From NCBI GenBank assembly GCA_900696465.1, contig CAADGE010000027.1, forward strand, positions 1 to 64,000: a DNA stretch of 64,000 nt, given 5' to 3'. The translations under genes were made by a program, and so were the position numbers. Each line of letters opens with the position of its first letter. Within the stretch, counting starts at the first letter, position 1. The notes under the pieces were generated by a model, which was not told where the DNA came from, ran no database searches, and saw nothing but the letters and a program-made list of their open reading frames with translations. Source of the DNA: an uncultured Planctomycetota bacterium (GTDB lineage: Bacteria; Planctomycetota; Phycisphaerae; UBA1845; UTPLA1). Positions 32,730-46,277 of the stretch are shown here, in pieces.

Positions 32730-34229
32730 TCACGCTGCGCTGCGATCCGGATCATGCCGCCGCTGACGCGTCGCCCGCGAACCACGGTCATCCGCCTCAT
32801 CCGGTTCAGCCCGTTCGTGCGGCCGCTTCCTCGAGACGTCGCACTCCGTTCGCGGAAACACCCGCTCCCGGTCCCAGAGGTAGTAAATCGGCGGCTCCCC
32901 GATGATCTGCCGGAAGGCCCGTGTCAGCTCCTGTGGTGCACGGCCGCGCACTTTGTAGTGCGCCCCGCCGTGCATCGCCGCGACGTAATTGAGCAGTGTC
33001 TTTTCCACCATCGCCCGGATGCGCGGGTAGCGGGCCACCTTCTGCGAAAAGTCCGGGCTCAGCGGGTCGAGCTTCATCTCCCGCAACCGCTCGAGCAGTT
33101 TCCACCTTCCCGCGGGCATCGGGCATCGGCCGATGCGAATCATCCCCGCCCGCTCAAAGACCGGATTGACGGCACCCATGACGGCGAGACATTCGACGAA
33201 GCGCACGCCAACCTTCGGCAGCGCCTGCCGAACAAACCAGTGGCCCAGGCCGCACCCGCGAACGTCCGGGTGCATGACCAGCCGCCGCAGGATGCGCAGC
33301 TCTCGGTTGAGCCGCCGCATGTTGCGGATGAACCGGCCCTGCGTAGCCGCATTGCGCAACGCCAGTTCGCGCGGGGCATGGGCGAAGACGAGAATCCCCA
33401 GCGGGTCGGCCTTCGGGGCCTCGCGGAGCAGGAAGACCTTGTCAACGAAACCCAGCCCGTCGCGATGGCGGTAGTGCATCGGCGAGAAGCGATGATAGTC
33501 GCGCACGCTGCCAGACTCGATGGTCGCCCGGCGGCGCAGTGACACCGCCTTGTCACTCGGCCGATGCGTCAGTCGCGCCGGAGCCGGGCCGCCCAGGCGC
33601 ACGGTCTCGTCCGGCTGAAGGTCCTCCGCCACGTCGTCCTGCGCCGCGGCCGTGATGAAGATCAGGCGGTGTCGGGAAACGAGCTTGCGCAGGTTGTGGG
33701 CGATGGCCCGCGCCGCCCGGCGATGCAGCAGCGAAGTAAACTCGTCGCAGATGATCGGCGCGCCCTGCCGCGAAGTGATTGACCAGCCGATCGCCCGCGC
33801 CAGTGACGCCCGAAACTTCTCGCCATCGGAAAGGTCGGCATACCGGCGGATCCACAAGCGGGGTTCTCCCAGACCGCATGCCGTGAGAATTTCCAGCGCG
33901 GTTGCCAGCGGACGGCCCGGGGCAATGCCGTCAACAATCGGTCGCGGCGAGGTCGTCTGCCGGTCGCCGACCCAGAGCGGCGAATCCACCTGTTCGGCGA
34001 TGTTGGCGAGGATCGAGGTCTTCCCGCTGCCGGACGGGCCGGTCACGAGAAGGATCGACCCCGGTCGCAGCTCCAGATCGAGGCCATCGGCGATGATCTG
34101 CGGCTCCTCCCGTGGGGGAATCCCGAAATCGAGACAGATTTCTCTTTTACGAGGGGTCATGGGCACGAAGGCGGTCTCGCGGATTACGCGGACCCGGACT
34201 TTGACGGGTCGAAAAACTTCTGGCGACAT
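32730..34229 (-). CDS. ABC-type ATPase fused to an acetyltransferase-like domain (COG2401 type)
   Basis: 499 residues and soluble. Residues about 40-215 are an ABC ATPase with Walker A GPSGSGKTS (64-72), signature LSDGEKFRA (133-141) and Walker B PIICDEFTS (158-166). There are no membrane helices, and no permease is adjacent. Residues about 235-400 carry a GNAT-like acetyl-CoA site, RRLVMHPDVRGCGLGHWFV, with RGCGLG matching the RxxGxG/A loop. A C-terminal region of about 100 residues (VEKTLLNYVAAMHGGAHYKVRGR) ends in a very basic tail. COG2401 is described only as an ABC ATPase joined to a predicted acetyltransferase, with no known function. It may act on nucleic acid or ribosomes, but that is inference. 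The ATG at 34229 has GGAGGAG a few bases upstream. Confidence 0.75.
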   Translation of the reverse strand: MSPEVFRPVKVRVRVIRETAFVPMTPRKREICLDFGIPPREEPQIIADGLDLELRPGSILLVTGPSGSGKTSILANIAEQVDSPLWVGDRQTTSPRPIVDGIAPGRPLATALEILTACGLGEPRLWIRRYADLSDGEKFRASLARAIGWSITSRQGAPIICDEFTSLLHRRAARAIAHNLRKLVSRHRLIFITAAAQDDVAEDLQPDETVRLGGPAPARLTHRPSDKAVSLRRRATIESGSVRDYHRFSPMHYRHRDGLGFVDKVFLLREAPKADPLGILVFAHAPRELALRNAATQGRFIRNMRRLNRELRILRRLVMHPDVRGCGLGHWFVRQALPKVGVRFVECLAVMGAVNPVFERAGMIRIGRCPMPAGRWKLLERLREMKLDPLSPDFSQKVARYPRIRAMVEKTLLNYVAAMHGGAHYKVRGRAPQELTRAFRQIIGEPPIYYLWDRERVFPRTECDVSRKRPHERAEPDEADDRGSRATRQRRHDPDRSAA

Positions 34230-34671
34230 TTCTGCTCCTCCTTTCTGGCGGCGATGGAAGCCGCACGCATGACAGGAATACCTAACATTTTCCTAATATG
34301 CGAAAGATAACACGTGAATTGGTAAAAATCAATAAGAAGTTGTAATACGTTGTCAGAATATGACTTAGTGATTTGTCATCTCGATAAGACCGGCCGGATT
34401 CCCGCCCGGGTCAGTCTCAACCGCGGTGGAATCGAGCGGGCTGACTGGCCTACCATCGCTGATTTTTTGCGAATTTCGATGAAATTATGCACGTTTTCGG
34501 GCTGTTTTACGCACGGATGGATAGTCGGATATTGCTTTCTCGCCTGACTGGTTACCGGCCGGTTCGCGAGGGCCATGAAAGACCCGAAAATCAGCCCTCC
34601 GGCGGGTAAGGCGGCCCCGGTAACGGGGTTGAAAAAAATGCGGCTTCCGGACAATTTTGCCCAAGCGGGCC
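34230..34671. other. 442-base gap, AT-rich at 34285-34375
   Basis: The part at 34285-34375 is clearly richer in A+T than its surroundings (for example TTGGTAAAAATCAATAAGAA). It presumably holds the promoter of the COG2401-type gene on the minus strand. Small open frames here lack coding character or a convincing ribosome-binding site and are not called. Confidence 0.4.
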
Positions 34672-34707: not shown

Positions 34708-35242
34708 TGAGCGTGCAGGCCGATTCCTCGGTCCTGCGTGCGGTTGGTGCCTTTGCAGAGGCACTCGGCCGTTCGCTCACGGCGACGGTCCGACCTGTGT
34801 CGGGCGTTTCGCCGCCTTGGTAAGGCCAGCGGTGGTCGGTGCTTTGCAAGAGTGCCGGTTGCTTTCGGCCTTTCGAGTCTGCCTCGGGCGATCCGCAAGA
34901 GCGCCCGCATGATGGCACTCGTGCAGACCACGGCGGTCGAGAAGCACGACGAAGTTGTCAGACGGTTGTCAGGTGCCAGGCGTCATTGCCGGCGGATGGG
35001 ACGAAGCTCTTTCCGGTGAGCCAGTTCAGTCGCGGCATCGCCTTGCAATGGGGATGCAGGAAGGCCATGCAGAGCCGTCCGGCATCAGCCCGGTTCACGC
35101 GTGTGTATCGCGATCCGGGTCGAAGTGGTGTAGTTACGAGCGACCTTCACGCCCCGGTAGGCGAAGGGTCCTGCGGCGATGGTCGATTGGCCTCGCTGAA
35201 AAGCAAAGTGAAGTTGCTCGTCATCGAGCAGGGAGAAAAAAG
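34708..35242 (+). ncRNA. long structured 5' leader (candidate regulatory RNA)
   Basis: No protein gene fits here, yet the region is dense in inverted repeats. Examples are GCAGGCCGA/TCGGTCCTGC around 34714, GTGCCT/AGAGGCAC around 34747, GCCTT/AAGGC around 34815 and the perfect TGCTCG/CGAGCA stem at 35215-35230. The last stem ends directly against the GGGAG ribosome-binding site (35231-35235) of the next gene. I could not match it to a known riboswitch, RNase P, tmRNA or SRP core motif. It could also be simply a long GC-rich leader. Confidence 0.35.
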
Positions 35243-36388
35243 ATGAAGAAGAGTGCAATTTTTCTGAGCACGGCCGTGGTGGCGCTGTTCGCCTCGGTCT
35301 CGCTCGGCCAGGAATCGGTTATCTGGATGGACGCTCGGCCGAACAATACGGCTGCCGGTGTGAATACGATTACCGGTGGTTCGATTGGTAACGCGTTCAA
35401 CAACCCGTACATTCAGACTGGTATTAACAGTGGTCGCCGCGGTGCAGGCCAGGTTGTTCGCCTCGAAGGCAAGCGAAACCTGAATCGCCACCTGACGCTG
35501 ATCTCCGGCGGCGCAGGTCTGACCTTCCCGAATCATGATGGCGACAGCGATCCGAGCACCGCGAGCATCTGGGTCTATCTGGACATGAACGACGATCCGG
35601 ACGGTACCGGTGACGTGCTGGCCTCGCTCGGCTTGAATATCAACAATACACCGTTAGTTCCAGGTGACCTGCGAAACCGCATTAATTCGATCAGTTTCCA
35701 GCTCTTCAACGATGGCAACGTCCGCAACTCCATCACCGGCGGTCAGCCGCTGGTCTGGGATGACAAGGTCGACGGCGCCGTGGTCCCCGGCGATCCGCCG
35801 AGCTGGGCGGGTGCCAAGGCCGTCCGCGTTCCGGTGAGCGCCGGTCCTGTCTACAACGCCTCTCTCGGCATCACGCCGCGACCTTCCGGCCTGACGGATA
35901 TTCCTTATCGCGTCGGTCGGCTTGACCTTGTCGCCGGCAGCCGAAACTGCGTAAGCGGTGGTTTGATCGGTGGTCTCCCGGCACACGCGGCGAAGTCGAC
36001 GTACAACGTTCACATGTCTGTGAACAATCTTTTGATCGCTCGCGTCTTCGAGACTGGTGGTGACACTCCACCGGATGAGAAGATCAGCTTCGGCTACAAC
36101 GGCTCCATTCCCGAGCTTCCAGTGGTCAGCGGCAGCCAGCAGGGTGCGACGTCGACCCTCCCGGATGCAATCGTCGAGATCCGTATGAAGGGCGATTACA
36201 ACGGCGACGGTCAGGTCAGTAGTGCCGACAACTCAGCCCACAGTGCTGCGGTTAGCGCTGCATCTGATACGCTGCTCCAAGTGTACACCGGCGACTTTAA
36301 CAACTCGAATACCGTTACAAGTGCGGATACCTCGTTTTTTGCTGCTGCCCGAGCTGTTGGCTCGTTAGCTCCGATCCACTGTCCGTAA
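35243..36388 (+). CDS. secreted protein with C-terminal dockerin-like calcium repeats
   Basis: 381 residues with a signal peptide (MKKSAIFLSTAVVALFASVSLGQ). The mature chain is Gly/Asn/Thr-rich and beta-like (for example DGDSDPSTASIWVYLDMNDDPDG), without an enzyme motif. The last 65 residues contain two dockerin-type calcium loops, GDYNGDGQVSSADN and GDFNNSNTVTSAD; the second is degenerate, with Asn for Asp. Such domains occur at the ends of many planctomycete secreted proteins, and a cohesin partner is not visible. GGGAG is eight bases before the ATG, and a 6-bp stem abuts it, suggesting control of translation or message stability. A hairpin after the stop separates it from the PEP-CTERM gene. 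Confidence 0.72.
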   Translation: MKKSAIFLSTAVVALFASVSLGQESVIWMDARPNNTAAGVNTITGGSIGNAFNNPYIQTGINSGRRGAGQVVRLEGKRNLNRHLTLISGGAGLTFPNHDGDSDPSTASIWVYLDMNDDPDGTGDVLASLGLNINNTPLVPGDLRNRINSISFQLFNDGNVRNSITGGQPLVWDDKVDGAVVPGDPPSWAGAKAVRVPVSAGPVYNASLGITPRPSGLTDIPYRVGRLDLVAGSRNCVSGGLIGGLPAHAAKSTYNVHMSVNNLLIARVFETGGDTPPDEKISFGYNGSIPELPVVSGSQQGATSTLPDAIVEIRMKGDYNGDGQVSSADNSAHSAAVSAASDTLLQVYTGDFNNSNTVTSADTSFFAAARAVGSLAPIHCP

Positions 36389-36415
36389 ATGACGGTGTGC
36401 TCCGATTTTAGCCTT

Positions 36416-36450
36416 GGTCCCCGGGTCATAAAAAAAGTGGCCCGGGGGCC
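36416..36450 (+). terminator. very strong stem-loop after the dockerin-protein gene
   Basis: Arms GGTCCCCGGGTCA and TGGCCCGGGGGCC pair over 13 positions (two G-U) around the nine-base loop TAAAAAAAG. No U-tract follows; instead the next promoter begins at once (TTGAAT, 36451). It may terminate transcription or protect the 3' end of the message. Confidence 0.55.
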
Positions 36451-36479
36451 TTGAATCGGAACGAGGAACCTGATAGACT
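36451..36479 (+). promoter_or_regulatory. sigma-70-type promoter of the PEP-CTERM protein
   Basis: TTGAAT (36451-36456) and TAGACT (36474-36479) are separated by 17 bases. Transcription would start near 36486, giving a leader of about 165 bases that contains a perfect GGGAAGC/GCTTCCC hairpin at 36492-36510. Confidence 0.55.
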
Positions 36480-36619
36480 GGTTAGTGTGATGGGAAGCAG
36501 CACGCTTCCCGAGGAGTGCAAAGAAGTCAAGTATTCTCGTAAAAAGCTTCCAGTGCTGCCCGCCAGTCAAGGGGATTCTTGAGGCAAGGCCGCAGGGGAG
36601 AGAGCGGGAAAGAACAGAA

Positions 36620-36636
36620 CTCAAAGTTTCTTTGAG
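36620..36636 (+). promoter_or_regulatory. stem-loop directly before the ribosome-binding site
   Basis: A perfect 7-bp stem CTCAAAG/CTTTGAG with a TTT loop ends at 36636, and the AAGGAG Shine-Dalgarno sequence starts at 36637. This may stabilise the message or tune initiation. The same geometry occurs before the dockerin-protein gene. Confidence 0.55.
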
Positions 36637-36651
36637 AAGGAGATGGAGAAA

Positions 36652-37377
36652 ATGAAAGCTGCTAAGATTCTTTCGCTGGCTGCGGCCCTTTCGCTGGCGG
36701 TCACCTCGATGGCGAACGCCGTCGGTGTGGTCTGGTTCGAAGCTCAGGGTGTTCTTCCGAATTCGTCGAGCGATGGTCTCGGCGGATCCGGCTTGGGTCG
36801 CGGCCTGAAGGTCGATTGCGACGTGACCCAGGGTCTTCGCTGTGAGTGGCTTGTTTCGGTCTTCTACCAGAACTTTGACGGTGGTGCCTACGGGTGGTCG
36901 TTGGATATCGGTACGCTCGATGGTACGATTGCGCCTGATAAGTTCCTCGTAAAGGATGTCATTCTTCCGCTTTCGACTTTGGCGACTGACGTCTCAGAGC
37001 CGCTGGTCAACCAGGAAGGTTTTCCCCTGATCTGGAATGCTGGCGGTAGCAACGTGAGTGCTACGGGAGCACCGGCTGGCACCTACTTGCTGATGCAGTT
37101 CGTCCTGTCGAAGAACAAGCGCCCGGGTGAGTTCCAGACTTCAGCGATCTACGCCGGTATCGGATTCGGCGAGTTCGGCGGAAACGACCTTCCGTCGGGT
37201 CACGAGATCCTCACGATGGTTGGCCCGAATCAGATCAACGGTGCTGGCTCGAACGATCAGTTCTGGCCTGACAATGCTCTGGGCAACCCCATTCTCGTCA
37301 TCAACAACGTTCCGGAGCCCGCTACGATCGGTCTGCTCGGCCTCGGCCTGCTGACCCTCGTCCGCCGACGCCGGTAA
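36652..37377 (+). CDS. PEP-CTERM sorted secreted protein
   Basis: 241 residues with a signal peptide (MKAAKILSLAAALSLAVTSM, cut after ANA) and a C-terminal PEP-CTERM tripartite signal: VPEPATIG, a hydrophobic helix GLLGLGLLTLV and RRRR. Exosortase recognises such tails and removes them during export to the surface. The mature part is beta-rich without a known enzyme motif. The AAGGAG at 36637-36642 is immediately adjacent to an ATG at 36643 and nine bases from the ATG at 36652, so the second is the real start. No exosortase gene is in the window. It is monocistronic: its own promoter lies upstream and a strong terminator follows. Confidence 0.9.
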   Translation: MKAAKILSLAAALSLAVTSMANAVGVVWFEAQGVLPNSSSDGLGGSGLGRGLKVDCDVTQGLRCEWLVSVFYQNFDGGAYGWSLDIGTLDGTIAPDKFLVKDVILPLSTLATDVSEPLVNQEGFPLIWNAGGSNVSATGAPAGTYLLMQFVLSKNKRPGEFQTSAIYAGIGFGEFGGNDLPSGHEILTMVGPNQINGAGSNDQFWPDNALGNPILVINNVPEPATIGLLGLGLLTLVRRRR

Positions 37378-37404
37378 GACGTACTCAGGTTTGCTTAACA
37401 CTCG

Positions 37405-37443
37405 GACGGCCGGTTGCCTCTGCAATCGGCCGTCTGTCTTTTT
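37405..37443 (+). terminator. rho-independent terminator of the PEP-CTERM gene
   Basis: A 13-bp stem with one mismatch (GACGGCCGGTTGC/GCAATCGGCCGTC) and loop CTCT is followed by TGTCTTTTT. It lies 27 bases after the stop codon. Confidence 0.9.
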
Positions 37444-37477
37444 ACGGATCGCACGCCGATTCCCGGATTATTGCCCC

Positions 37478-37507
37478 GAGACACCGTAGCCGCTCAGCGC
37501 GTATAAT
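37478..37507 (+). promoter_or_regulatory. promoter of the proline-rich secreted protein
   Basis: A perfect TATAAT at 37502-37507 is preceded by GAGACA (37478-37483, 4 of 6 to the -35 consensus) at 18 bases spacing. Transcription would start near 37514, about 100 bases before the ATG. Confidence 0.6.
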
Positions 37508-37613
37508 CCATCAGATCAAGTGCGAAGCCGAAATCGTTTGCCTGCGGTCTGCGCCCTCCCCCGTACAGCGGTGGGCTGGCGAACGCCTTGGAGTTTCTGA
37601 GGAGTTGGTCATT

Positions 37614-38870
37614 ATGCCTCGCTTGTCTTCTGTATCTATTTCTCGCTCGACTCAAACTTTGATTGGTTCGCTTGGCAGTAGAGCACTGGTTGTCACTGCC
37701 ACGGTAGCGCTCTTGCTTGCATCGCCGGGTCAGGCCACGCCGCCGGGTATGGAGCATGTCGACCCATCGTGGATCGAGTCCTGGGAATTCGAGATGGAAC
37801 GACAGCTTCAGATGATGGAGTCCGCCTACGCGCTGGATGCCGACGCGATGGCAACGCTACGGCAGGAGATGCAGAACCGCCTGCTCGAGCAGTGGAATCA
37901 CGATCAGGAATCCGACCGTGAGATGCAGGACCTGCTGCGGCAGATCGAGGAATCCGGCACGCCTGCCGATGATGAGAACTCGCCGCTCGTGCAGAAACTC
38001 AATGAGCGACTTCTTGCGCAGACGGAGTCAATGCCATTGAATGAAATGCAGATCGCTACCTGGCTTGAACAGCGATTGCCTCCGGCGGTAGCCACCCAAG
38101 GCCGCGCCCGTCTGGAAGAGTTGCGAACGCGGCATCTGTTAATGATGGCCACCCAGGAATATGACAGCGAGATGCGAGCGTCGCTCAAGAGTTCCCTCCA
38201 GCGCGAAGCCAAGGAGATGACCGCTGAGGTTCCTGCCGAATTCAACCGACCGGTTCCTCCGGCGGAGATCGTCGAATATGCCGAGGCCCGCGACCGGATG
38301 GAGAAGATGCAGCCCTACGTCGAGCCGATGCGGCCGCGTGCAGAGGCCCGTGGCTCGCGCCCTGAGCAATCCCCGCAGTTTGTCCCGCCGACCGTCCCGC
38401 ATCCGCAGCCGCAGGCACAGCCGCCGGTCACTCGCCCCGAGCACCAGGCCGCCAAGCCCGCGCCCGAGCCGATCTCTCCGCCGAGGCCGGTGGTCAATCC
38501 TCAGGCACAGCCGCCGCAGCAGAAGACTGCGGCCCCGCCTCCGCTTCAGCCGGCCCCGCCGCTGGACGACTGGGAAAAGTACGTGCTGAGCGTGGCGGCG
38601 AAGTATGAATTCGACGAGAGCCAGACGACCAATGCCCGGTCGATTCTCTCGGACCTCCGACGCCGAGCATACCAATACCAGGCCAGCCGAGCAGAGGATT
38701 TCGCCCGAACGGAGCTTATGACCGACGCGAAGGCCCGCACGGAAGAGTTGAAAAACCTGAACCGCCCGCTGGATGCCCTGTTTGAGGAGCTTAAGCAGCG
38801 GCTGGAGTCCCTGCCGACGATTTCGCAGCGGCAGAAGGCGGGTTCGGCAGCGCCGGCGGGACGCAAATAG
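37614..38870 (+). CDS. secreted, proline-rich, helical protein of unknown function
   Basis: 418 residues. A long N-terminal leader ends with a hydrophobic core (ALVVTATVALLLASPGQA), which looks like a signal peptide. Residues about 45-205 are charged and helical with many Met/Gln/Glu (coiled-coil-prone). Residues about 215-320 form a Pro/Gln/Ala-rich linker (PPTVPHPQPQAQPP, PAPEPISPPRP). The last 100 residues are helical again, with regular charge alternation. GAGGAG ten bases upstream supports the ATG at 37614 over a TTG nine bases earlier. No family is recognised; the layout suggests a cell-envelope or periplasmic scaffold. It has its own promoter and terminator. Confidence 0.65.
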   Translation: MPRLSSVSISRSTQTLIGSLGSRALVVTATVALLLASPGQATPPGMEHVDPSWIESWEFEMERQLQMMESAYALDADAMATLRQEMQNRLLEQWNHDQESDREMQDLLRQIEESGTPADDENSPLVQKLNERLLAQTESMPLNEMQIATWLEQRLPPAVATQGRARLEELRTRHLLMMATQEYDSEMRASLKSSLQREAKEMTAEVPAEFNRPVPPAEIVEYAEARDRMEKMQPYVEPMRPRAEARGSRPEQSPQFVPPTVPHPQPQAQPPVTRPEHQAAKPAPEPISPPRPVVNPQAQPPQQKTAAPPPLQPAPPLDDWEKYVLSVAAKYEFDESQTTNARSILSDLRRRAYQYQASRAEDFARTELMTDAKARTEELKNLNRPLDALFEELKQRLESLPTISQRQKAGSAAPAGRK

Positions 38871-39015: not shown

Positions 39016-39681
39016 TCAGAGTTCCCGGCTGACGAGGCAGACGGCGATTCCCTGAATTGAGAAATCGCGGGTTTCATCGAGCACCACGGGAGGGACGCGG
39101 GGGTTGTCGCCGCGCAGAATGATGAGTCGGTCGCCGCTGCGACTTTCAATGCTCACGCGCTTGAGCGTCGGGCGGCCGTCGACGAGACACGCGCAGATCT
39201 TCCCCTGCACGGCGAATGGGTCCACGCCGGGGCGGTAATCGACGAGGATGATGTCCCCTCGCTGAAGGGTCGGCTCCATCGAATCGAACTCGCATCGCAG
39301 GCAGTAGCGGTCCGGCTGCCACAGGTGCCGCAGGACGGGGAACATCTCCAGTTGTTCCTGGGATTCGGCCGGCGGACCGTTGGGGATCGTGCCGAACAGC
39401 GGCAGCTCGCGGGTGTCCAGCGCCTGCGGGGCGTCGTGACCTTCGCCTTCGCCCAGCAGGACGGCCTCCGGCACGCCAAGGGCGATCGCCAAAGCCCGCA
39501 GGGTGTCCGGTCGGGGGAAATGCTCACCGCGCTCAACGGAGGACAGGTGCCCCTGATTGACGCGGGCCCGTTCGGCCAGCTCGGTCTGAGTGAGGCCCTG
39601 TTCGACGCGGATTCGCCTCAGGCGCTCCCCGAGGGTCTGCTGCGCCTGCTGTTTGACGCGATGGAAGTCGAACCCGGCCAT
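39016..39681 (-). CDS. XRE-type repressor with S24 (LexA/CI-like) protease domain
   Basis: 221 residues. A helix-turn-helix spans about 17-70 (LGERLRRIRVEQGLTQTELAERARVNQGHLSSVERGE), and an S24 peptidase-like domain follows with Ser134 in DSMEPTL and Lys174 in PTLKRV, the catalytic pair of LexA/CI-type self-cleaving repressors. The place of the usual Ala-Gly cleavage site (LPLFGTIPNGPP) has Asn101-Gly102, so self-cleavage may be altered or lost. It may control its own promoter or the divergent PDZ gene, 132 bases away. Starts at 39681 and 39690 are both possible. Confidence 0.85.
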   Translation of the reverse strand: MAGFDFHRVKQQAQQTLGERLRRIRVEQGLTQTELAERARVNQGHLSSVERGEHFPRPDTLRALAIALGVPEAVLLGEGEGHDAPQALDTRELPLFGTIPNGPPAESQEQLEMFPVLRHLWQPDRYCLRCEFDSMEPTLQRGDIILVDYRPGVDPFAVQGKICACLVDGRPTLKRVSIESRSGDRLIILRGDNPRVPPVVLDETRDFSIQGIAVCLVSREL

Positions 39682-39813
39682 GGGGCGCATTCTACCTGCA
39701 TTGCGGACCGGCGGTGAGCATCGGCGTGTGTCTCGAATCGTGCTGCGAATTCATGGGCGGCGGATATGCGGGCGGATAGAATGCCCCGTAGTGGCGGTCT
39801 TTAAGGGCATGGG

Positions 39814-40971
39814 ATGTTCCTGCTGGTGACATATCTGGCGATCTGGTGGTGCTCGCTGGCACAGGCGGTTGCAGGGGCGGCACCGTCGCCGACAACGCGG
39901 GCGGTCGAGCCGGCGCATTCGATCGACTCACTCCTGGCCGACCTGGAGAGCCCGGAGTGCATGGTACGCGATGCGGCGGCGATCCTTCTGTCGGAGAAGG
40001 GACCGGAGTGCTATGAACCGCTGCGGAAGCTTTTTCATCGGACGCGGTTCTATGAGGTGCGTCGGTTGATCCGGCAGATCACGCTGGAGATTTATCTGAG
40101 CGAGCGATTCGGCCCGCCGCGGGCGTTTCTGGGCATCAGCCATCATGGAATGCCGGTAGGCGAGGCGCAGGACACGCGGGTACCGCCGTGGGCGACGGCA
40201 TTGCGGATCACGGACGTCTTCAAGGCCTCCAGCGCCCAGAAGGCGGGGCTGCAGAGCGGCGACATGGTCACAGCGATGAACGGTCGCGCTGCGACGATCG
40301 AGTATCCCGCGCTGGAGTTCACGAAGTGGATCGCCGAGCAGACGCCGGGCACACAGTGCGAGGTGACAGTGCTGCGCGGCGGAAAAGGTGTCAAGCTTGT
40401 GGCACACGAGCGCGCGCCCTTCCGGCCCGAGGCCCTGCGGACGGTGACCTTTGAGGCCCGGTCGCATGCCGAGGACCCGCGCGTGCCGCCGGGTGTGGGG
40501 GGGATCGTGCTGACGGACATCACCGGCGTGCCGATTGAGATCGACGTGCGTGAGGGGGATCTGATTCTCGCACTGGACGAGGAGGCGCTGCCCGTTGCCA
40601 CGGCCGCGGAGCGATTTGAAAAATGGCGGCAGGGGCAGTGGGTCGGGCGCGGCTTTCCCGTGGACGTCGGTCGCCTTCCGCCACAGGCACAGCTTCGGCT
40701 CCAGCCGGGTCAGGCGGTAATGGCCCGCACGGCGCAGATTTTGCGCGGCGGGGAGGCGCTGAACATCGTCGTTTCGCTGGGGCGATGGCCGACCTACCTC
40801 GCGGACCAGATGCAGGGGGCGCCACGTGCCGGCGGGGGCGGTCAGCGGGAGCAGGTGATCGAGTCTTTCGGCTCCTGGTGGCGAGAGACCTTCGATCCCG
40901 ACGGATTGTTTTCGGAACGGGCGGAGTACGACCCAGACTGGCAGCTCAAGCCCACCTGGAAGTCGCACTGA
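39814..40971 (+). CDS. secreted or membrane-anchored protein with PDZ domains
   Basis: 385 residues with a signal peptide or anchor (FLLVTYLAIWWCSLAQAVAGAA). A helical, HEAT-like segment near 35-95 (MVRDAAAILLSEKGPECYEPLRKL) precedes a PDZ domain near 130-205 (LRITDVFKASSAQKAGLQSGDMVTAMNG ... VTVLRGGK) and a shorter PDZ-like unit near 230-275 (GIVLTDITGVPIEIDVREGDLILALDEE). No protease domain is present. PDZ domains bind C-termini or internal peptides, so it may be a scaffold in envelope quality control. AAGGG is nearby upstream of the ATG at 39814. It is divergent from the XRE/S24 regulator. Confidence 0.72.
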   Translation: MFLLVTYLAIWWCSLAQAVAGAAPSPTTRAVEPAHSIDSLLADLESPECMVRDAAAILLSEKGPECYEPLRKLFHRTRFYEVRRLIRQITLEIYLSERFGPPRAFLGISHHGMPVGEAQDTRVPPWATALRITDVFKASSAQKAGLQSGDMVTAMNGRAATIEYPALEFTKWIAEQTPGTQCEVTVLRGGKGVKLVAHERAPFRPEALRTVTFEARSHAEDPRVPPGVGGIVLTDITGVPIEIDVREGDLILALDEEALPVATAAERFEKWRQGQWVGRGFPVDVGRLPPQAQLRLQPGQAVMARTAQILRGGEALNIVVSLGRWPTYLADQMQGAPRAGGGGQREQVIESFGSWWRETFDPDGLFSERAEYDPDWQLKPTWKSH

Positions 40972-41782
40972 TCGGGCGGCCTGTGATACCGGCGGTTCGT
41001 TGAACGCCAGATACGATTTGCCTGCTGCCTTCCGGCGTGATGCATCTCATCGACCTTAGCTGATAAATGGCGCACGACGTTGTGTGCGATGGTCGCGCAG
41101 GAAGTGCGCATCGTCTCAATAACGTGAAAGCGCAGTCGCGCCGGACGCGGGACGCGAAAATTTTGCGCGTTCATTTCTCGTGCGAAATATCGGTCGAAAA
41201 TGCGATACACCCTCGGCCGCGTGTCGGGCCGATACTTATTATCAGTATTGCCGGTAGCGCCGACCGGTTGCCAGCGTCCGATCATGGAAAATATCTTTCA
41301 ATGCTGCAAACTGGGTTTGCCCGCCCGACCATTGTTTCTTATGCTGAAAATGGCCTTCACCGATGTGAGTGCTGGTTTGGTGGTGAAGGCCCGGTCGATA
41401 CCGCGAGCTGAGAGAATTGAACGGCTCGCGGCTGGCCCCGGCCCATCGGCGGTTCGGGCAGCTCGATCGCGGAGGGGTATGGCGTCGCGTCGACCTTGGT
41501 CCTGCGTCGCCACACATCACACGTCTGCCGCCCTTGGAGCGTTGCGGCAGGATCCGACTTCGCCACATGAAACGACGCGTCGCGGTTCGCACGAGCAGCC
41601 GTTTGGGCATGTTCTCGCGGAAAGCGGCAGTGCGTTACGGATTCGACAGAACGGACGCTGTCGGAGTGATTTCCCCTCGCGTTGGGGGGAAAGAAGGAAA
41701 GGGCACGGAGCACGGCAGGACGCCGGATTCCGGCCTGACCGCTTGGGGGACAGCGTCCGTTCCCTGCAGGAGAGGAGAAGCT
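40972..41782. other. 811-base gap and leader before the flp pilin gene
   Basis: No convincing gene lies here. The region has a small palindrome ATACT(TATTATC)AGTAT at 41232-41248. It presumably contains the tad operon promoter and a long leader. Minor open frames, including an extension of the flp frame back to 41417, look non-coding (Arg-rich and without homology). Confidence 0.45.
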
Positions 41783-41956
41783 ATGAACGCTTTGATCAAT
41801 CGAGTGAAGTCGTTTTTCGTCGAGGAAGATGGCGCGACGGCGACGGAGTACGCCGTGATGCTCGCGCTGATTATCGTGATCGCACTCGGCGCGATCAGCG
41901 CGCTGGGCACCAAGGTTTCGGCGACGTTCGCCGACGTGGAAAGCCAGATGCCGTAA
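41783..41956 (+). CDS. flp: Flp-type IVb pilin
   Basis: 57 residues. The leader ends with EEDG and is followed by ATATEYAVMLALIIVIALGAIS, the Flp signature: cleavage after Gly, Glu at +5 and Tyr at +6, then a hydrophobic helix. It is the major subunit of the Tad pilus, processed by the prepilin peptidase at 42126. A purine-rich GAGGAGAAG lies upstream of the ATG. It is the first gene of the tad locus and, being upstream with a long leader, may be expressed at the highest level. Confidence 0.9.
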   Translation: MNALINRVKSFFVEEDGATATEYAVMLALIIVIALGAISALGTKVSATFADVESQMP

Positions 41957-42125
41957 GGCATCGCGCGACGGCGGAGGCGCCAGGCGGCGCCTTTGCCTGA
42001 ACCGTAGTGGCGGCTCGACGGGCGGCGGCATGACGCCCCGCCCGTCGGGCGCGTTACGGGAATCTCGTACGGCTCGGCGGACCAAACGTCGAACGTGCGA
42101 CTCTGACCATGAGGAAGGTGAAGTG

Positions 42126-42686
42126 ATGTTCGAAGCCGGGTCAGGATGGTGGATGTTTGCGGTGCTCGTTCCCGCGATGCTCTTCGCGGGCTGGAACGAC
42201 TACCGCACGCATCGCGTCCCGAACTGGCTGAACGTGCTTCTGGCGTCGGGCGGCCTCGCAGCGCATACCTGGTTTGCCGGTTGGGCAGGCCTGTGGCACG
42301 CGGCGGTCGGCATGCTGGTCGGCTTCGGGCTCCTCGTGGGCCTGTGGCTGATTCGCGGCATGGGCGCCGGCGATGTGAAGTTCATGGCCGGCCTCGGGGC
42401 CTGGCTGGGGCCGCAGCTGACGCTCTATGCCGTGGCGGCCGCCGGGCTAATCGGCGGCGTGATCGCGCTGGGCATGATCGCGGCGCGAGGTCAATGGCGG
42501 CAGTCGGCCTTCAACGTGGGTGTGCTGATATCCAAGTGCAGTTCCGTCCGCACGGCGCTGAGCGACTTCGGCTCGGCCGGGCAGCTTTCGGGACAGGCGG
42601 GAATGATGCCGTATGCCATTCCGCTGTCCCTGGGCACGACGGTGGTGATTCTGGCCAGGTTCTCCGGATGGTGGGGAGTGCTATGA
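42126..42686 (+). CDS. cpaA: Tad prepilin peptidase (CpaA/TadV)
   Basis: 186 residues with five to six membrane helices. The two catalytic aspartates of type IV prepilin peptidases are visible in GWNDYRTHRVPN and the GxGD motif GAGDVKF. It should cleave the Flp leader. It is short, as in the TadV branch that lacks the methylase domain. The stop overlaps the start of tadE (ATGA), so the two are translationally coupled. Confidence 0.88.
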   Translation: MFEAGSGWWMFAVLVPAMLFAGWNDYRTHRVPNWLNVLLASGGLAAHTWFAGWAGLWHAAVGMLVGFGLLVGLWLIRGMGAGDVKFMAGLGAWLGPQLTLYAVAAAGLIGGVIALGMIAARGQWRQSAFNVGVLISKCSSVRTALSDFGSAGQLSGQAGMMPYAIPLSLGTTVVILARFSGWWGVL

Positions 42687-43126
42687 AAACGAACCGAAGA
42701 AAATTCGCGCGTCGTGGTGCCGCGGTCGTTGAGGCCGCTGTGGTCGCTCCGCTGATGATCCTGTCGATGTTCGGCATGATCGAGGTGGGCTACGCTTTCA
42801 TGGTCAAACAGACTGTGACGCTCGCAGCCCGTGAGGGTGCCAGAGCTGCGGCACTACCTGGCGGGAACATGAGCAGCGTGCAGTCCGCCGTGGACGCTTC
42901 CATGGGCGCCGCAAACCTGAGCGGCTACACCACCACCAGCAACATCAGCACCGTCGGCCCGACGGACGTCGAAGTCTGGGTCGAAGTGCGCATGCCGTTT
43001 GATCGCGTCGGTTTCACCGGCCAGCTCATGGGCGGCGGCTCTTTCGACATCACCGGGCGGACCACGATGCGCCGCGAGGGCATCGAAACCGGCTCCGACG
43101 GACAGGGCGGCGGTATCGAACTCTAA
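42683..43126 (+). CDS. tadE: TadE-like minor pilin/pseudopilin
   Basis: 147 residues with one N-terminal helix and the TadE pattern RRGAAVVEAAVVAPLMILSMFGMIEVGYAF followed by VTLAAREGARAAA, the standard start of TadE/TadF proteins (Glu near +5 after Ala/Val). The rest is a soluble beta-rich domain. It is probably processed like Flp and incorporated in or needed for the pilus. The ATG at 42683 overlaps the upstream stop by four bases. Confidence 0.85.
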   Translation: MKTNRRKFARRGAAVVEAAVVAPLMILSMFGMIEVGYAFMVKQTVTLAAREGARAAALPGGNMSSVQSAVDASMGAANLSGYTTTSNISTVGPTDVEVWVEVRMPFDRVGFTGQLMGGGSFDITGRTTMRREGIETGSDGQGGGIEL

Positions 43127-43180
43127 ACGGTAGCATTCACGCGGCGACCGGCTTCGGCGCGGCGTCAATGGACGATACGG

Positions 43181-44104
43181 ATGAAACCCAAAACCATCAT
43201 ACCGTTGGTCATCGGCCTGGGCGTCGGCTTCTTCGCCATCAAGATGGGTCTGGACCTGATCCAGAAGGCCAAGGGCGCGCAGGGGCTGGAGACGGTCGTC
43301 TGCGTCAGCGCCAAGCAGATCGAAGTGGCCACCCGCGTTACCGAGTCGATGATCAGCACGGCCCGCGTGCCGGTCGCGCTCGTTCCGTCAAACGCCTTCA
43401 CCGACCCGAAGAATCTCGTCGGCCGAGTTACCAGCATGACCGTCGCGCCCGGTGTTCCGATCACCAATAACATGCTCGCCCCGGTGGGCTCGGAACCTGG
43501 CCTGCGGGCGATCATCCCGCAGGGCCATCGCGCGGTGAGTGTCAGCGTTACGGAGGAATCCGCGGTCGCCGGATTCATCACGCCGGGCAGTCGTGTGGAT
43601 GTATCCACCGTTTCGGAACGCGACGGCGCCAGCAAGCTGATTCTGACCAACATCGAAGTCGGTGCGGTCGGCCAGTCGCTCAGCGAGGTCGGCGCCGACG
43701 GCAAGAGTACGCGCGTGACCAAGTCGGTGACGCTCTTCCTTGAGCCGCACGAGGTGCAGATTCTCAACAGCCACACCGCCGGCCGCAGTCAGAAAGTACG
43801 ACTCGCACTGCGCGGCAACAATGAGGAACCGAGCGACGCTTTCTGGTCGAAGTTCCTCCAGAACACCCTGTCGAATCAACTGGTAGCCAAGGCCGCTTCA
43901 TCGAAGGCAGAGGAAGCCCCGCGGCGCCAGTACGTCGTCGAAGTGCTACACGGCGACGAACTCGAACGACTCGTTTTTGATGATTCCGGCCTCGTGGAGC
44001 GGAGAGCATCGGGCAGCACACAGGATGTGCGCTCGAGCCGCTATCCGTCAGCCAAGGGTGCGGAAAACACGCAGAACACTCCAAAGTCGGAGGTACTTGA
44101 ATGA
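43181..44104 (+). CDS. cpaB: Flp pilus assembly protein CpaB/RcpC
   Basis: 307 residues. An N-terminal membrane segment (IIPLVIGLGVGFFAIKMGLDLI) is followed by an SAF domain (about 35-95: VVCVSAKQIEVATRVTESM ... VTSMTVAPGVPITNNML) and the RcpC/CpaB domain with GHRAVSVSVTEESAVAGFITPGSRVDV and VTLFLEPHEVQIL. It lies in the periplasm and is thought to stabilise or gate the secretin channel. The last bases overlap the cpaC start (ATGA). Confidence 0.9.
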   Translation: MKPKTIIPLVIGLGVGFFAIKMGLDLIQKAKGAQGLETVVCVSAKQIEVATRVTESMISTARVPVALVPSNAFTDPKNLVGRVTSMTVAPGVPITNNMLAPVGSEPGLRAIIPQGHRAVSVSVTEESAVAGFITPGSRVDVSTVSERDGASKLILTNIEVGAVGQSLSEVGADGKSTRVTKSVTLFLEPHEVQILNSHTAGRSQKVRLALRGNNEEPSDAFWSKFLQNTLSNQLVAKAASSKAEEAPRRQYVVEVLHGDELERLVFDDSGLVERRASGSTQDVRSSRYPSAKGAENTQNTPKSEVLE

Positions 44105-46065
44105 TCGCTCCCACGGATGGAAACGCCTCGCCGGACAAGGCCGCCTCAAGGAAGAGTGCGGTCGCTTGTCCGTTATGCGTGCCCGGAATTCGCGCGGGTC
44201 AGGCCCGAGCGACCGCGCTGGCATTGGTCGCGCTGACGCTTGGTACCAGTCTGGCCACTGTGCAGGCAGGTTCGAGTCTTTCCGGACCCGTTCTGCTGGA
44301 TACGACCTGTCGTGTGATGGCCAATCGCGCCTTGGCGCTCGCCGATGGACCTGCTGATCCGGCCGAGCGTGAACAGCGTGTCGTACGGGCCAATCAGCCG
44401 ACGTCCCTGCCTCCGGTAAAAGACGCCGCTGCAAACAAAGATGAAACCACACAGCCGGGCTCCGTCGTTGAGCCGGCACCGCCGCCGCCCAAAGCGGCTT
44501 CGAATGTTACTCCACCCGATTCAAACACGGATCAGCTACTCGATACGCCTGTGCTTCTGGCCAGCGCGCAGCAGCCGCAGGGCGGAGTGCCAGCCGGCGC
44601 AGCCGCCATGGGCGATTCAGATTTGATCGCCGGTATTGATGTGCAGAGTCATCGGGCACGGCCGGTGGTCGTTTCGCGAAACAGCTCCGCCGTCGTGGAC
44701 CTCAAGGCACGATGCGATCGAGCGGAGATCGCCGATCCGAATATTGCAGAGATCTTCGTCGTATCACCGACGCGGATCATTGTGACCGGCCGGAACTTCG
44801 GTTCCACGCAGATGATCCTCTGGTTCGGCGATCAGCAGCGCGTTTTCTCGATCAACGTCGAGCATGATCTGTCGGTTTTGAACGAGGCGATCCGCCGCGT
44901 GTCGCCGACGGCGCGGGTCGAGCCGCGCAGCGTCAACGGCGTCATTGTGCTGGCCGGTACCGTGCCGGATTCCCAGAGTGCCGAGCGCATCGTCGAGATC
45001 GCCACGCTCTACCAGGGGGGGGTCGTGCGCAACCAGTTGAGCGTCGCCGGCGTGCAACAGACCATGCTGCGCGTGGTGGTCGCCGAAGTGAACAAGGAGG
45101 CCGTACGCCAACTCGGTTTCAACTGGGCGATCGGCGCTTCCGATTGGTCGCGCGATTTCTTCTTCGCCAACAATGTCGCCCAGCTCAACCCCACGGTCTA
45201 TTCGTCCAACGGGCTGGCGAATATCCTCGCGCCGAATCCGGCCGGACAGTTGACCTATTCCGTGGCCGCGACAGCGAATGGGGCGAACACGAACCTCACC
45301 TTCGGCTTCCCGCGCGCCGAGTTCCAGGTCTTTATGCAGGCCCTGCGACAGAACTCGCTGGCCCGCGTCCTCGCGGAGCCGAACCTGGTGGCCATCAGCG
45401 GACAAACCGCGACGTTCCTCGCGGGCGGCGAAGTGCCGATCCCGGTGACACAGGGCGGCGCCGTGGCCGGCTCCATCACCATCGAATACAAGGAATTCGG
45501 CGTGCGACTCGCATTCACGCCGACCGTCATGGCCGGGCAGATTGTCCGGCTGCATGTCATGAGCGAAGTCAGCGACGCCATCCCGGGCATGGCTTTGCCC
45601 GGCGGGCTGCCCGTCTTTTCGTTCACGACGCGGCGTGTGGAATCGACGATCGAATGCGGAAACGGGCAGACCTTTGCCATGGCGGGGCTGCTGAGTGAGC
45701 GAGTTCAGGCAGTCTCCGAGAAGATACCTGGCCTGGGTGACCTGCCGGTACTAGGATCGTTGTTCAGTTCAATGCAGTATCAGCGAAACAACACGGAACT
45801 GGTCATCCTGGTGACACCGCAGCTCGTCGAACCGCTCGATCCGCAGCAGGTTCCTCCGCCTCCGGGATCCGAGATGGGACACCCGGACGATTTCCAGTTT
45901 TTCGCACTGGGTCAGCTCGAAGGCACGCCACGGACCGCGCCGTCGGTCGAGCGCGTGCCGCGCGAGGAGGCCCCGGTGACATCACCGCCGTCGGTCAGTT
46001 CCGCCGGCTGGCCGTCGTCACCGCTGACGCTTCGCGGATCCTGGGGATACGCGGACTTTGAGTAA
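44101..46065 (+). CDS. cpaC: Tad outer-membrane secretin CpaC/RcpA
   Basis: 654 residues. An N-terminal signal region (ATALALVALTLGTSLATVQAG) and a Pro/Ala-rich linker precede the pilus secretin N-domain (SSAVVDLKARCDRAEIADPNIAEIFVVSPTRIIVTG), a BON-like segment (GVIVLAGTVPDSQSAERIVEIA) and the C-terminal secretin domain (EPNLVAISGQTATFLAGGEVPIP, GLGDLPVLGSLFSS, ELVILVTPQLV). It should form the channel for the Flp pilus in the outer membrane. The start overlaps cpaB by four bases. A further Pro-rich tail follows the channel domain. Confidence 0.9.
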   Translation: MIAPTDGNASPDKAASRKSAVACPLCVPGIRAGQARATALALVALTLGTSLATVQAGSSLSGPVLLDTTCRVMANRALALADGPADPAEREQRVVRANQPTSLPPVKDAAANKDETTQPGSVVEPAPPPPKAASNVTPPDSNTDQLLDTPVLLASAQQPQGGVPAGAAAMGDSDLIAGIDVQSHRARPVVVSRNSSAVVDLKARCDRAEIADPNIAEIFVVSPTRIIVTGRNFGSTQMILWFGDQQRVFSINVEHDLSVLNEAIRRVSPTARVEPRSVNGVIVLAGTVPDSQSAERIVEIATLYQGGVVRNQLSVAGVQQTMLRVVVAEVNKEAVRQLGFNWAIGASDWSRDFFFANNVAQLNPTVYSSNGLANILAPNPAGQLTYSVAATANGANTNLTFGFPRAEFQVFMQALRQNSLARVLAEPNLVAISGQTATFLAGGEVPIPVTQGGAVAGSITIEYKEFGVRLAFTPTVMAGQIVRLHVMSEVSDAIPGMALPGGLPVFSFTTRRVESTIECGNGQTFAMAGLLSERVQAVSEKIPGLGDLPVLGSLFSSMQYQRNNTELVILVTPQLVEPLDPQQVPPPPGSEMGHPDDFQFFALGQLEGTPRTAPSVERVPREEAPVTSPPSVSSAGWPSSPLTLRGSWGYADFE

Positions 46066-46277
46066 CTGCAAGCCAGGCGATGCCGGTTGTGCCCACAGCG
46101 GCGCGTCGGCTCGTGAAACAATGCCATCGTGCACTTGCTCGATGGCGAGCTTATCGCCAACTCCCGCCGGCCGTTCTGAAAGAGGCTGCGGGGCGAAACC
46201 CCACGGACAACCTGTGACGCCGCGCGGCGCCCAGTGTGTCTGGTTCGCCACGCCGGTCACTCCCAGGAGGGCAAGCG

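Follow-up and report, generated by a model that had tools for sequence, protein, structure and literature searches.

The closest described counterparts of the gene analyzed here come from phages: for GNATs coupled with an ABC ATPase, acylation of a nucleobase of DNA has been predicted (PMC7824862, which cites Iyer et al. 2013). These phage forms lie beside ParB-like genes and, in nickie, near the terminase as well. SSU5 has the order ParB, ParB, ABC (phrog_293), a small gene and GNAT (phrog_886), Cyrano has ParB, ParB, ABC and GNAT, nickie has ParB-like genes, ABC, a phrog_886-type gene (by deposited name), terminase large subunit and portal, and Jace carries ParB with a fused ABC-GNAT. The Cyrano GNAT gene was deposited as ‘MK0520 protein, ABC-type ATPase fused to a predicted acetyltransferase domain’, which we take to be the title of COG2401. 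A second reference point is the Mom protein of phage Mu, which modifies adenine in DNA and for which acyl transfer to N6 is described (PMC7824862).

The same coupling of ABC ATPase and GNAT is found in a single gene (hereafter ABC-GNAT) within the 64,000-nucleotide stretch of planctomycete DNA analyzed here, referred to as the window. In PHROGs, the window protein matched phrog_11143 (E 1.6e-28), phrog_293 and phrog_886, and its GNAT half compared with phrog_886 gave E 3.2e-5; it thus matches both the ABC and the GNAT family of SSU5, which differs in having separate genes with a small gene between them and two ParB-like genes upstream. The best BFVD match was a 366-aa Leptospira phage LE4 ‘GNAT’ (371 alignment columns, E 5e-18). 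Unlike the phage forms, the window gene lies on a host chromosome, is inherited with its lineage, lacks a co-conserved ParB-like partner, is linked to an XRE-S24 repressor gene (REP), has a dyad in its promoter, and encodes His for Asp in the D-loop and, in family f1, an RHxP tail. The initial annotation regarded the family as no more than a predicted fusion without an assigned function, which is too strong a statement given that DNA-base acylation by phage ABC-GNATs is already predicted in print (PMC7824862). No paper on a host form was found in the open-licence PMC literature searched.

Architecture and inheritance of the ABC-GNAT gene

The gene and its parts are as follows.

32730..34229, (-) strand: ABC ATPase-GNAT fusion gene, 499 aa, intact ORF
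33558..34127, (-) strand: ABC ATPase domain, residues 35-224 (Pfam ABC_tran and VIA-align)
34017..34043, (-) strand: Walker A TGPSGSGKT, residues 63-71 (GPSGSGKT 64-71), read in the sequence and alignment
33816..33836, (-) strand: ABC signature region DLSDGEK, residues 132-138 (LSDGE 133-137), from sequence and alignment
33735..33758, (-) strand: Walker B PIICDEFT, residues 158-165 (IICDEF 159-164), from sequence and alignment
33114..33527, (-) strand: GNAT acyltransferase core, residues 235-372, the most conserved part (identity, dN/dS and fold)
33465..33479, (-) strand: MHYRH with H252-Y253-R254 (family alignments and hand comparison with Mom)
33240..33284, (-) strand: RLVMHPDVRGCGLGH, comprising R316 and the acyl-CoA loop RGCGLG, residues 324-329 (alignments)
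32844..33113, (-) strand: C-terminal helical extension, residues 373-462, ending in a conserved P-x-Y-Y-L-W strand (alignment and model)
32733..32843, (-) strand: basic tail, residues 463-499, with RRHDP (low model confidence)

The 499-aa ORF begins with an ATG preceded by a good ribosome-binding site. Its ABC domain was identified with Pfam ABC_tran (30.4 bits against a cut-off of 25) and aligned structurally with an ABC nucleotide-binding domain over 191 residues (VIA-align Z 17.3, rmsd 3.9). Walker A, signature and Walker B motifs are all present, in agreement with the initial annotation, and their key residues are kept throughout an alignment of 29 family members: the Walker A G and K, Walker B D, and signature S and G are each found in 29/29 and the catalytic Walker B Glu in 28/29. 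The cassette is nonetheless not fully canonical, as every one of the 29 aligned proteins has His in place of the D-loop Asp and just 15 retain the H-loop His, the window protein having Gln there. This degenerate H-loop suggests that ATP turnover by ABC-GNAT may be weak. The window protein carries one ABC domain, and the two tandem ABC domains that are a feature of ABC-F proteins are absent.

AlphaFold2 modeled the whole protein with a mean pLDDT of 84.3 and a pTM of 0.77. Because PDB match lists for the whole protein were filled by the ABC half, the GNAT half was also folded alone (mean pLDDT 85.9, pTM 0.76). Pfam called no GNAT domain in the window protein itself, and 14 of the 29 members matched Acetyltransf_7, with E values reaching 0.1. 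A GNAT fold is, however, seen in the domain model with its core at residues 235-372; both the fusion to a GNAT-like domain and the fold that had been expected between residues 235 and 400 are thus upheld, as are the acyl-CoA-type RGCGLG loop and the basic tail (12 K/R/H against 9 D/E over its 37 residues). When host, prophage and phage forms were aligned (n = 22), R316 was invariant, the position of H252 held H in 22/22 and that of Y253 held Y in 21/22. The tail motif (R/K)HxP is confined to family f1, where 14/15 proteins carry it and the remaining one reads RKLDP, with 0/14 in proteins from other families; G034 shows RAHTP.

Strong matches to the window protein were found in 33 of 41 genomes (its own included), 30 near full length and three partial, of which two are cut by contig ends (G016, G020) and one consists of two neighboring pieces of one open frame (G036). 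Three genomes have only weak generic ABC matches (G025, G029, G035), which would raise the tally to 36/41 if counted, and five of the 41 have no match at all (G019, G022, G024, G032, G038). The gene was not found in any of the six f4 genomes, all of which are at least 94% complete. Relatives share 43-66% identity with the window protein, and wherever a title is given it names a MAG of Phycisphaerales, Phycisphaerae or Planctomycetota. The 29-member alignment represents 29 of the 33 gene-bearing genomes, leaving out the three partial matches and G015 (nearly identical to G007), and the fusion is kept in every member. Mean pairwise identity is 65% in the GNAT core, 48% in the ABC part and 41% in the C-terminal part, and dN/dS is 0.04-0.19 in the GNAT core against 0.13-0.49 in the ABC part, with the GNAT value lower in 8/8 closest pairs and dS near saturation in some. 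The gene is under purifying selection, and its GNAT half is under the strongest constraint. In a tree of 42 proteins (short search, SH-aLRT only, with many weak inner forks), families f1, f2, f5 and f8 each form one clade and the family labels need seven changes, the minimum possible. This match between tree and families speaks for inheritance with the lineage, and ABC-GNAT is inherited lineage-wise.

Fold comparisons and the probable substrate

The best PDB match of the GNAT half was phage Mu Mom (8bv8; phrog_1384), ranked first by Foldseek (E 3.0e-5), with TM-scores of 0.37/0.43 that are low and no better than those to ordinary GNATs, and first by VIA-align (Z 14.0 over 174 residues, rmsd 4.0), where the next rows reached Z 12.5 over 133. 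In Mom and in the window family alike, an H-Y pair precedes the core strands and the central strand opens with an R, in a register that was aligned by hand; in Mom, these residues presumably have active-site roles. Mom differs in having an N-S-E-S stretch where the window family has the RGxGxG acyl-CoA loop, and in lacking an ABC domain. Three hhalign comparisons against the Mom profile showed no significant sequence similarity (P 0.27, 0.13 and 0.38). A Mom-like working of the GNAT half is accordingly offered as a structural lead from the model, and membership of the Mom family is not claimed.

The reading that we prefer, and regard as evenly poised overall, is that ABC-GNAT is a phage-derived, now host-owned and repressor-controlled ABC-acyltransferase that most likely modifies DNA bases. 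DNA would be the likeliest substrate, with RNA or protein less likely. The ABC half may dimerize on DNA in an ATP-dependent manner and offer the duplex to the GNAT half at the C-terminus; this half would transfer an acyl group from acyl-CoA to the exocyclic amine of a base. The GNAT site would be lined by H252-Y253-R254, R316 and E346, and the C-terminal helices and basic tail could add nucleic-acid affinity. The protein would then be an ‘orphan’ modification enzyme, the window's order having kept only regulator and modification enzyme where sister orders keep ABC and GNAT beside a terminase large subunit. An ATP-gated acetylation of a nucleic-acid or ribosomal target had been suggested by the initial annotation; its nucleic-acid part is a sensible hypothesis, and no support was found for a ribosomal target. 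If the DNA reading is true, the chromosomes of most of an order carry a non-methyl base modification, made by a phage-derived enzyme turned host property, and a search for such a mark was not seen in the literature searched. It would also provide a host in which the printed prediction for phage ABC-GNATs becomes open to test, and a single small unit would bring together Mom-like chemistry, ABC ATPases and LexA-type control.

Two other substrates have to be weighed. ABC-GNAT could instead acylate a protein, its ABC half sensing ATP or DNA and thereby gating the reaction, with a target such as RNA polymerase, a nucleoid protein or, in phages, the terminase. Proteins or small amines are the substrates of many GNATs among the structural matches, and phage GNATs that acetylate RNA polymerase are described (PMC7824862). 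We nevertheless consider a protein target unlikely, as the best structural match is a DNA-modifying GNAT and, besides REP, no neighbor common to the families was found among the neighbors listed.

An RNA substrate appears less probable again. Here ABC-GNAT would acetylate a tRNA or rRNA base in the manner of TmcA (2zpa), a tRNA cytidine acetyltransferase that likewise joins an ATPase module to a GNAT acting on nucleic acid and ranked second when the GNAT half was compared by Foldseek (E 1.1e-4), and the ABC half would replace the helicase as RNA-handling motor. Inheritance that is order-wide and mostly single-copy fits such a housekeeping modification. Conversely, TmcA has a helicase instead of an ABC domain and Pfam detects no helicase module in the window protein, the gene was not found in 8/41 genomes (all of family f4 among them), its relatives stand with terminase and ParB-like genes, which is a DNA context, and the linked gene is an S24 repressor, so that a TmcA-like role is quite unlikely overall.

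Terminase-bearing relatives in sister orders

Across the phylum, 89/392 genomes matched at E 1e-20, many of them as two neighboring matches that represent an ABC and a GNAT encoded separately. In the class's other orders, ABC and GNAT are found with an HTH gene, a terminase large subunit (TerL) and, in some, a ParB-like gene; a small gene with no Pfam match takes the place of a small terminase subunit. This TerL is present in 54/77 genomes of other orders, nearly always in one copy, against 0/14 in the window's order, and is unevenly spread inside some families (8/12 in f115, 1/12 in f110). In f14 genomes, TerL and ABC-GNAT can be ~30 kb apart. An XRE-type gene adjoins the ABC gene in 9 of the 16 loci with ABC in view and is divergent in all nine; an S24 domain was found in 4/4 of those tested, one of which is detectably similar to REP. 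Genomes of f39 are different in that another TerL type follows, accompanied by a portal in L061.

Twenty of the 54 TerL-bearing class genomes were fetched, and a tree was built from 15 sequences, without G212, G301, G327 and G470 (antisense ORF taken instead) and G225 (TerL in two ORFs). Families f9, f12, f13, f14 and f112 each form one clade with six changes, the minimum possible, and the ATPase and nuclease motifs RGGGKT, RCDE, DFG, DPAG and DH..DALRY are conserved in 15/15. Among nine proteins encoded near TerL at two sister loci, none matched a head, tail or other packaging PHROG. In L271, TerL is directly followed by a recombinase of integrase type that by eye resembles XerC/D, and others of the nine read as ordinary chromosomal genes. 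Capsid family PF05065, the one capsid family searched, was found in 4/16 TerL-bearing genomes and in 0/3 of the window's family. On the basis of two loci and one capsid family, sister orders look to hold an inherited regulator-ABC-GNAT-terminase unit without adjoining virion genes. Such a terminase, seemingly with no virion genes, poses a further question of its own that is itself testable.

A broader reading would join both observations. Phycisphaerae-type planctomycetes may hold a domesticated phage ‘terminase-acyltransferase’ system composed of a LexA-type self-cleaving repressor, an HTH protein, ABC, a Mom-fold acyltransferase and, in sister orders, an intact terminase without adjoining virion genes. 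It would mark chromosomal DNA with an acylated base under repressor control, the kept terminase would act on marked or unmarked DNA, and the window's order would have shrunk the system to an orphan DNA-acylating enzyme and its repressor. We put this forward as tentative and on the doubtful side; it is weakened by the integrase beside TerL in L271 and by the uneven spread within f115 and f110.

Two further explanations draw on the same loci. In a defense system, ABC-GNAT would mark self DNA and a nuclease, represented by the sister-order terminase, would attack unmarked DNA, the nuclease having been lost from the window's order or being still unidentified there. The sister unit does have a modification-plus-nuclease make-up, and the ATPase and nuclease motifs of its terminase are invariant. 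Lineage-wise inheritance is, however, unlike the patchy spread of most defense genes, PADLOC gave ABC-domain matches only (best mad3, E 3.8e-12) and no nuclease was found among the window neighbors scanned, which makes a role in defense improbable. We rate just as low an origin in a gene transfer agent, or in a prophage of long standing, with ParB-ABC-GNAT-TerL kept in its packaging part. The wide, nearly single-copy occurrence of TerL with a tree consistent with families, the portal-associated TerL of the f39 relatives and the recombinase in L271 would suit such an origin; the lack of head, tail and packaging PHROGs at the two loci, the few genomes with PF05065 (none in the window's family) and the absence of sister TerL from the 14 genomes of the window's order argue against it.

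Neighborhood, promoter and partner repressor

The stop codon of ABC-GNAT lies 31 bases from that of the convergent rex gene, whose identity is backed by PF06971 and PF02629, exactly as the initial annotation described. The informative neighbor is the XRE-S24 repressor, not rex. Window neighbors with a Pfam match comprise rex, a PEP-CTERM protein, the S24 repressor, a PDZ protein and Tad pilus genes, with no phage, ParB-like or terminase gene among them. The lack of an adjacent permease partner was likewise borne out: none was detected by Pfam among the window neighbors scanned (several of which have no Pfam match) or among the recurring neighbors listed for relatives, which were compared with each other rather than annotated singly, and no transmembrane-permease family was found in ABC-GNAT itself. 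That ABC-GNAT is an orphan transporter ATPase fused by accident is scarcely credible. Its ABC half does best match transporter domains by fold, but the fusion is kept in all 29 members, constraint is stronger on the GNAT half than on the ABC half and no permease was found beside the gene.

Two candidates from outside the immediate locus were considered and rejected. A ParB-like partner in the host was sought through phrog_620, which is matched at E 1e-10 in 33/41 genomes, five of the eight gene-less ones included; many of these matches fall in open frames of ~430-500 aa, and that of the window's own genome, a strong one, lies at a contig end (G000:C45) in a chimeric-looking ORF. As for a gene transfer agent in the own genome, its TerL match (phrog_2, C22) sits among genes that, by inspection and from gene order, we take to be a Mu-like prophage.

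The regulatory features are listed below.

34318..34333, (-) strand: putative operator ATTG-N8-CAAT in the ABC-GNAT promoter (motif counts against shuffles)
34281..34298, (-) strand: direct repeat TATTAGG/TGTTAGG, period 11, between promoter and ribosome-binding site (sequence)
39016..39690, (-) strand: XRE-HTH and Peptidase S24 repressor gene (REP), conserved partner (Pfam, co-occurrence and linkage)

The AT-rich upstream region pointed out by the initial annotation holds a conserved dyad over the -35 region. ATTG-N8-CAAT occurs exactly in 9/29 ABC-GNAT upstream regions (9/16 of family f1), against a shuffle mean of 0.15 and maximum of 2, and in 15/29 when one mismatch is allowed (shuffle mean 3.0, maximum 8). 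Before REP, it was found exactly in 1/30 and with one mismatch in 7/30 (shuffle mean 2.0, maximum 5), and no common motif was found in REP's own promoters. The longer dyad around the -35 element, TGCN5ATTGACN5GCAAT, has seven exact sites in 12 f1 genomes, six just upstream of ABC-GNAT and one (G014) ~3 kb upstream; a further 20 sites listed are scattered and carry one mismatch each. The reversed pattern, used as a control, gave no exact site in these 12 genomes, and the exact long dyad is absent from five of them, the window's included. From these counts, the dyad at ABC-GNAT is likely to be a gene-specific operator.

The direct repeat was also considered, in the form TGTTNGGN5GTTNGG, as an SOS box or REP site and was set aside, as it is found before sigma-factor-like genes and a family of secreted proteins as well. 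It clearly exceeded its reversed control in G009 and G010 and did not in G003, G004, G006, G008, G012 and G015.

REP was found in 30/41 genomes, namely in 30/33 with ABC-GNAT against 0/8 without it (Fisher p 1.7e-6, in a test that ignores relatedness); the three gene-bearing genomes without REP are G005 (75% complete), G017 and G018. The two genes are on different contigs in 16 of the 30 genomes. In the 14 genomes where they share a contig, REP is always upstream, on the same strand and less than 8 kb away, and in eight of these it lies within 400 nt (G001, G006, G007, G010, G012, G015, G023 and G028, from families f1, f2 and f8). In the window, REP is 4.8 kb upstream with the PEP-CTERM gene and others between. 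Sequence distances of REP and ABC-GNAT correlate over 26 shared genomes (r 0.70; 0/2000 permutations as high), which is what co-inheritance predicts. REP is thus linked to ABC-GNAT.

REP resembles LexA and CI repressors in having an HTH and an S24 domain, a Ser/Lys dyad (catalytic Ser in 30/30, Lys in 29/30) and an A-G or N-G site (27/30; N in 16, A in 11). It differs from LexA in its XRE-type HTH, and the genome holds a separate LexA (TIGR00498 above cut-off at C23). From these residues we infer a self-cleavage of the LexA/CI type. Given the linkage between the two genes, REP is the presumed ligand of the dyad: it would hold ABC-GNAT down through the dyad over the -35 region and let go on self-cleavage, so that the gene may be inducible by damage.

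Beside REP, an unannotated protein of ~590 aa recurs in six loci.

The stretch between repressor and fusion gene

The XRE-HTH and Peptidase S24 repressor gene (REP) and the ABC ATPase-GNAT acyltransferase fusion gene (ABC-GNAT) are adjacent in eight other genomes, whereas in the window they are separated by other genes, one of them of PEP-CTERM type, and this intervening stretch may be an insertion. Features noted in and around this part of the window are:

34281-34298, TGTTNGG-N5-GTTNGG as a direct repeat with a period of 11, located upstream of ABC-GNAT
34955-38870, genes separating REP from ABC-GNAT
36643-37377, PEP-CTERM gene within that stretch
39814-48188, PDZ protein, then Tad/Flp pilus cluster (prepilin peptidase, TadE, RcpC/CpaB, secretin, Tad/VWA)

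A protein of ~590 aa recurs beside REP at six loci of family f1 (L050, L053, L126, L128, L130, L144). The repeat was also seen in three genomes upstream of a gene judged sigma-factor-like by eye, and four genomes have it ahead of members of a secreted protein family; the loci, besides the window, are L195, L178, L187 and L174, L177, L197, L202.

Terminases near ABC and GNAT genes

In genomes from other orders of the class Phycisphaerae, a terminase large subunit was found (L263-L282; e.g., L271, 3653-7657), which is inherited along families and is neighbored by ABC, GNAT and HTH genes and often by a divergent XRE-type gene. No head or tail genes were observed near this type of terminase at the two loci scanned, and an integrase-type gene directly follows it in L271. 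In family f39 (L057, L058, L061, L062, L064), where ABC-GNAT is fused or split, it is accompanied by a ParB-like gene and by a terminase of another type, followed in L061 by a lambda-type portal, with related genes occupying the same place in L057 and L062.

Other loci of the window's genome

Elsewhere in the window's own genome, L146 (G000:C22:96000-110000) resembles a Mu-like prophage by the look of its genes (by eye). At the end of contig G000:C45, an ORF (L092, 7685-8545) combines a ParB-like N-terminus with an ArsR-like C-terminus, possibly an assembly or insertion artefact.
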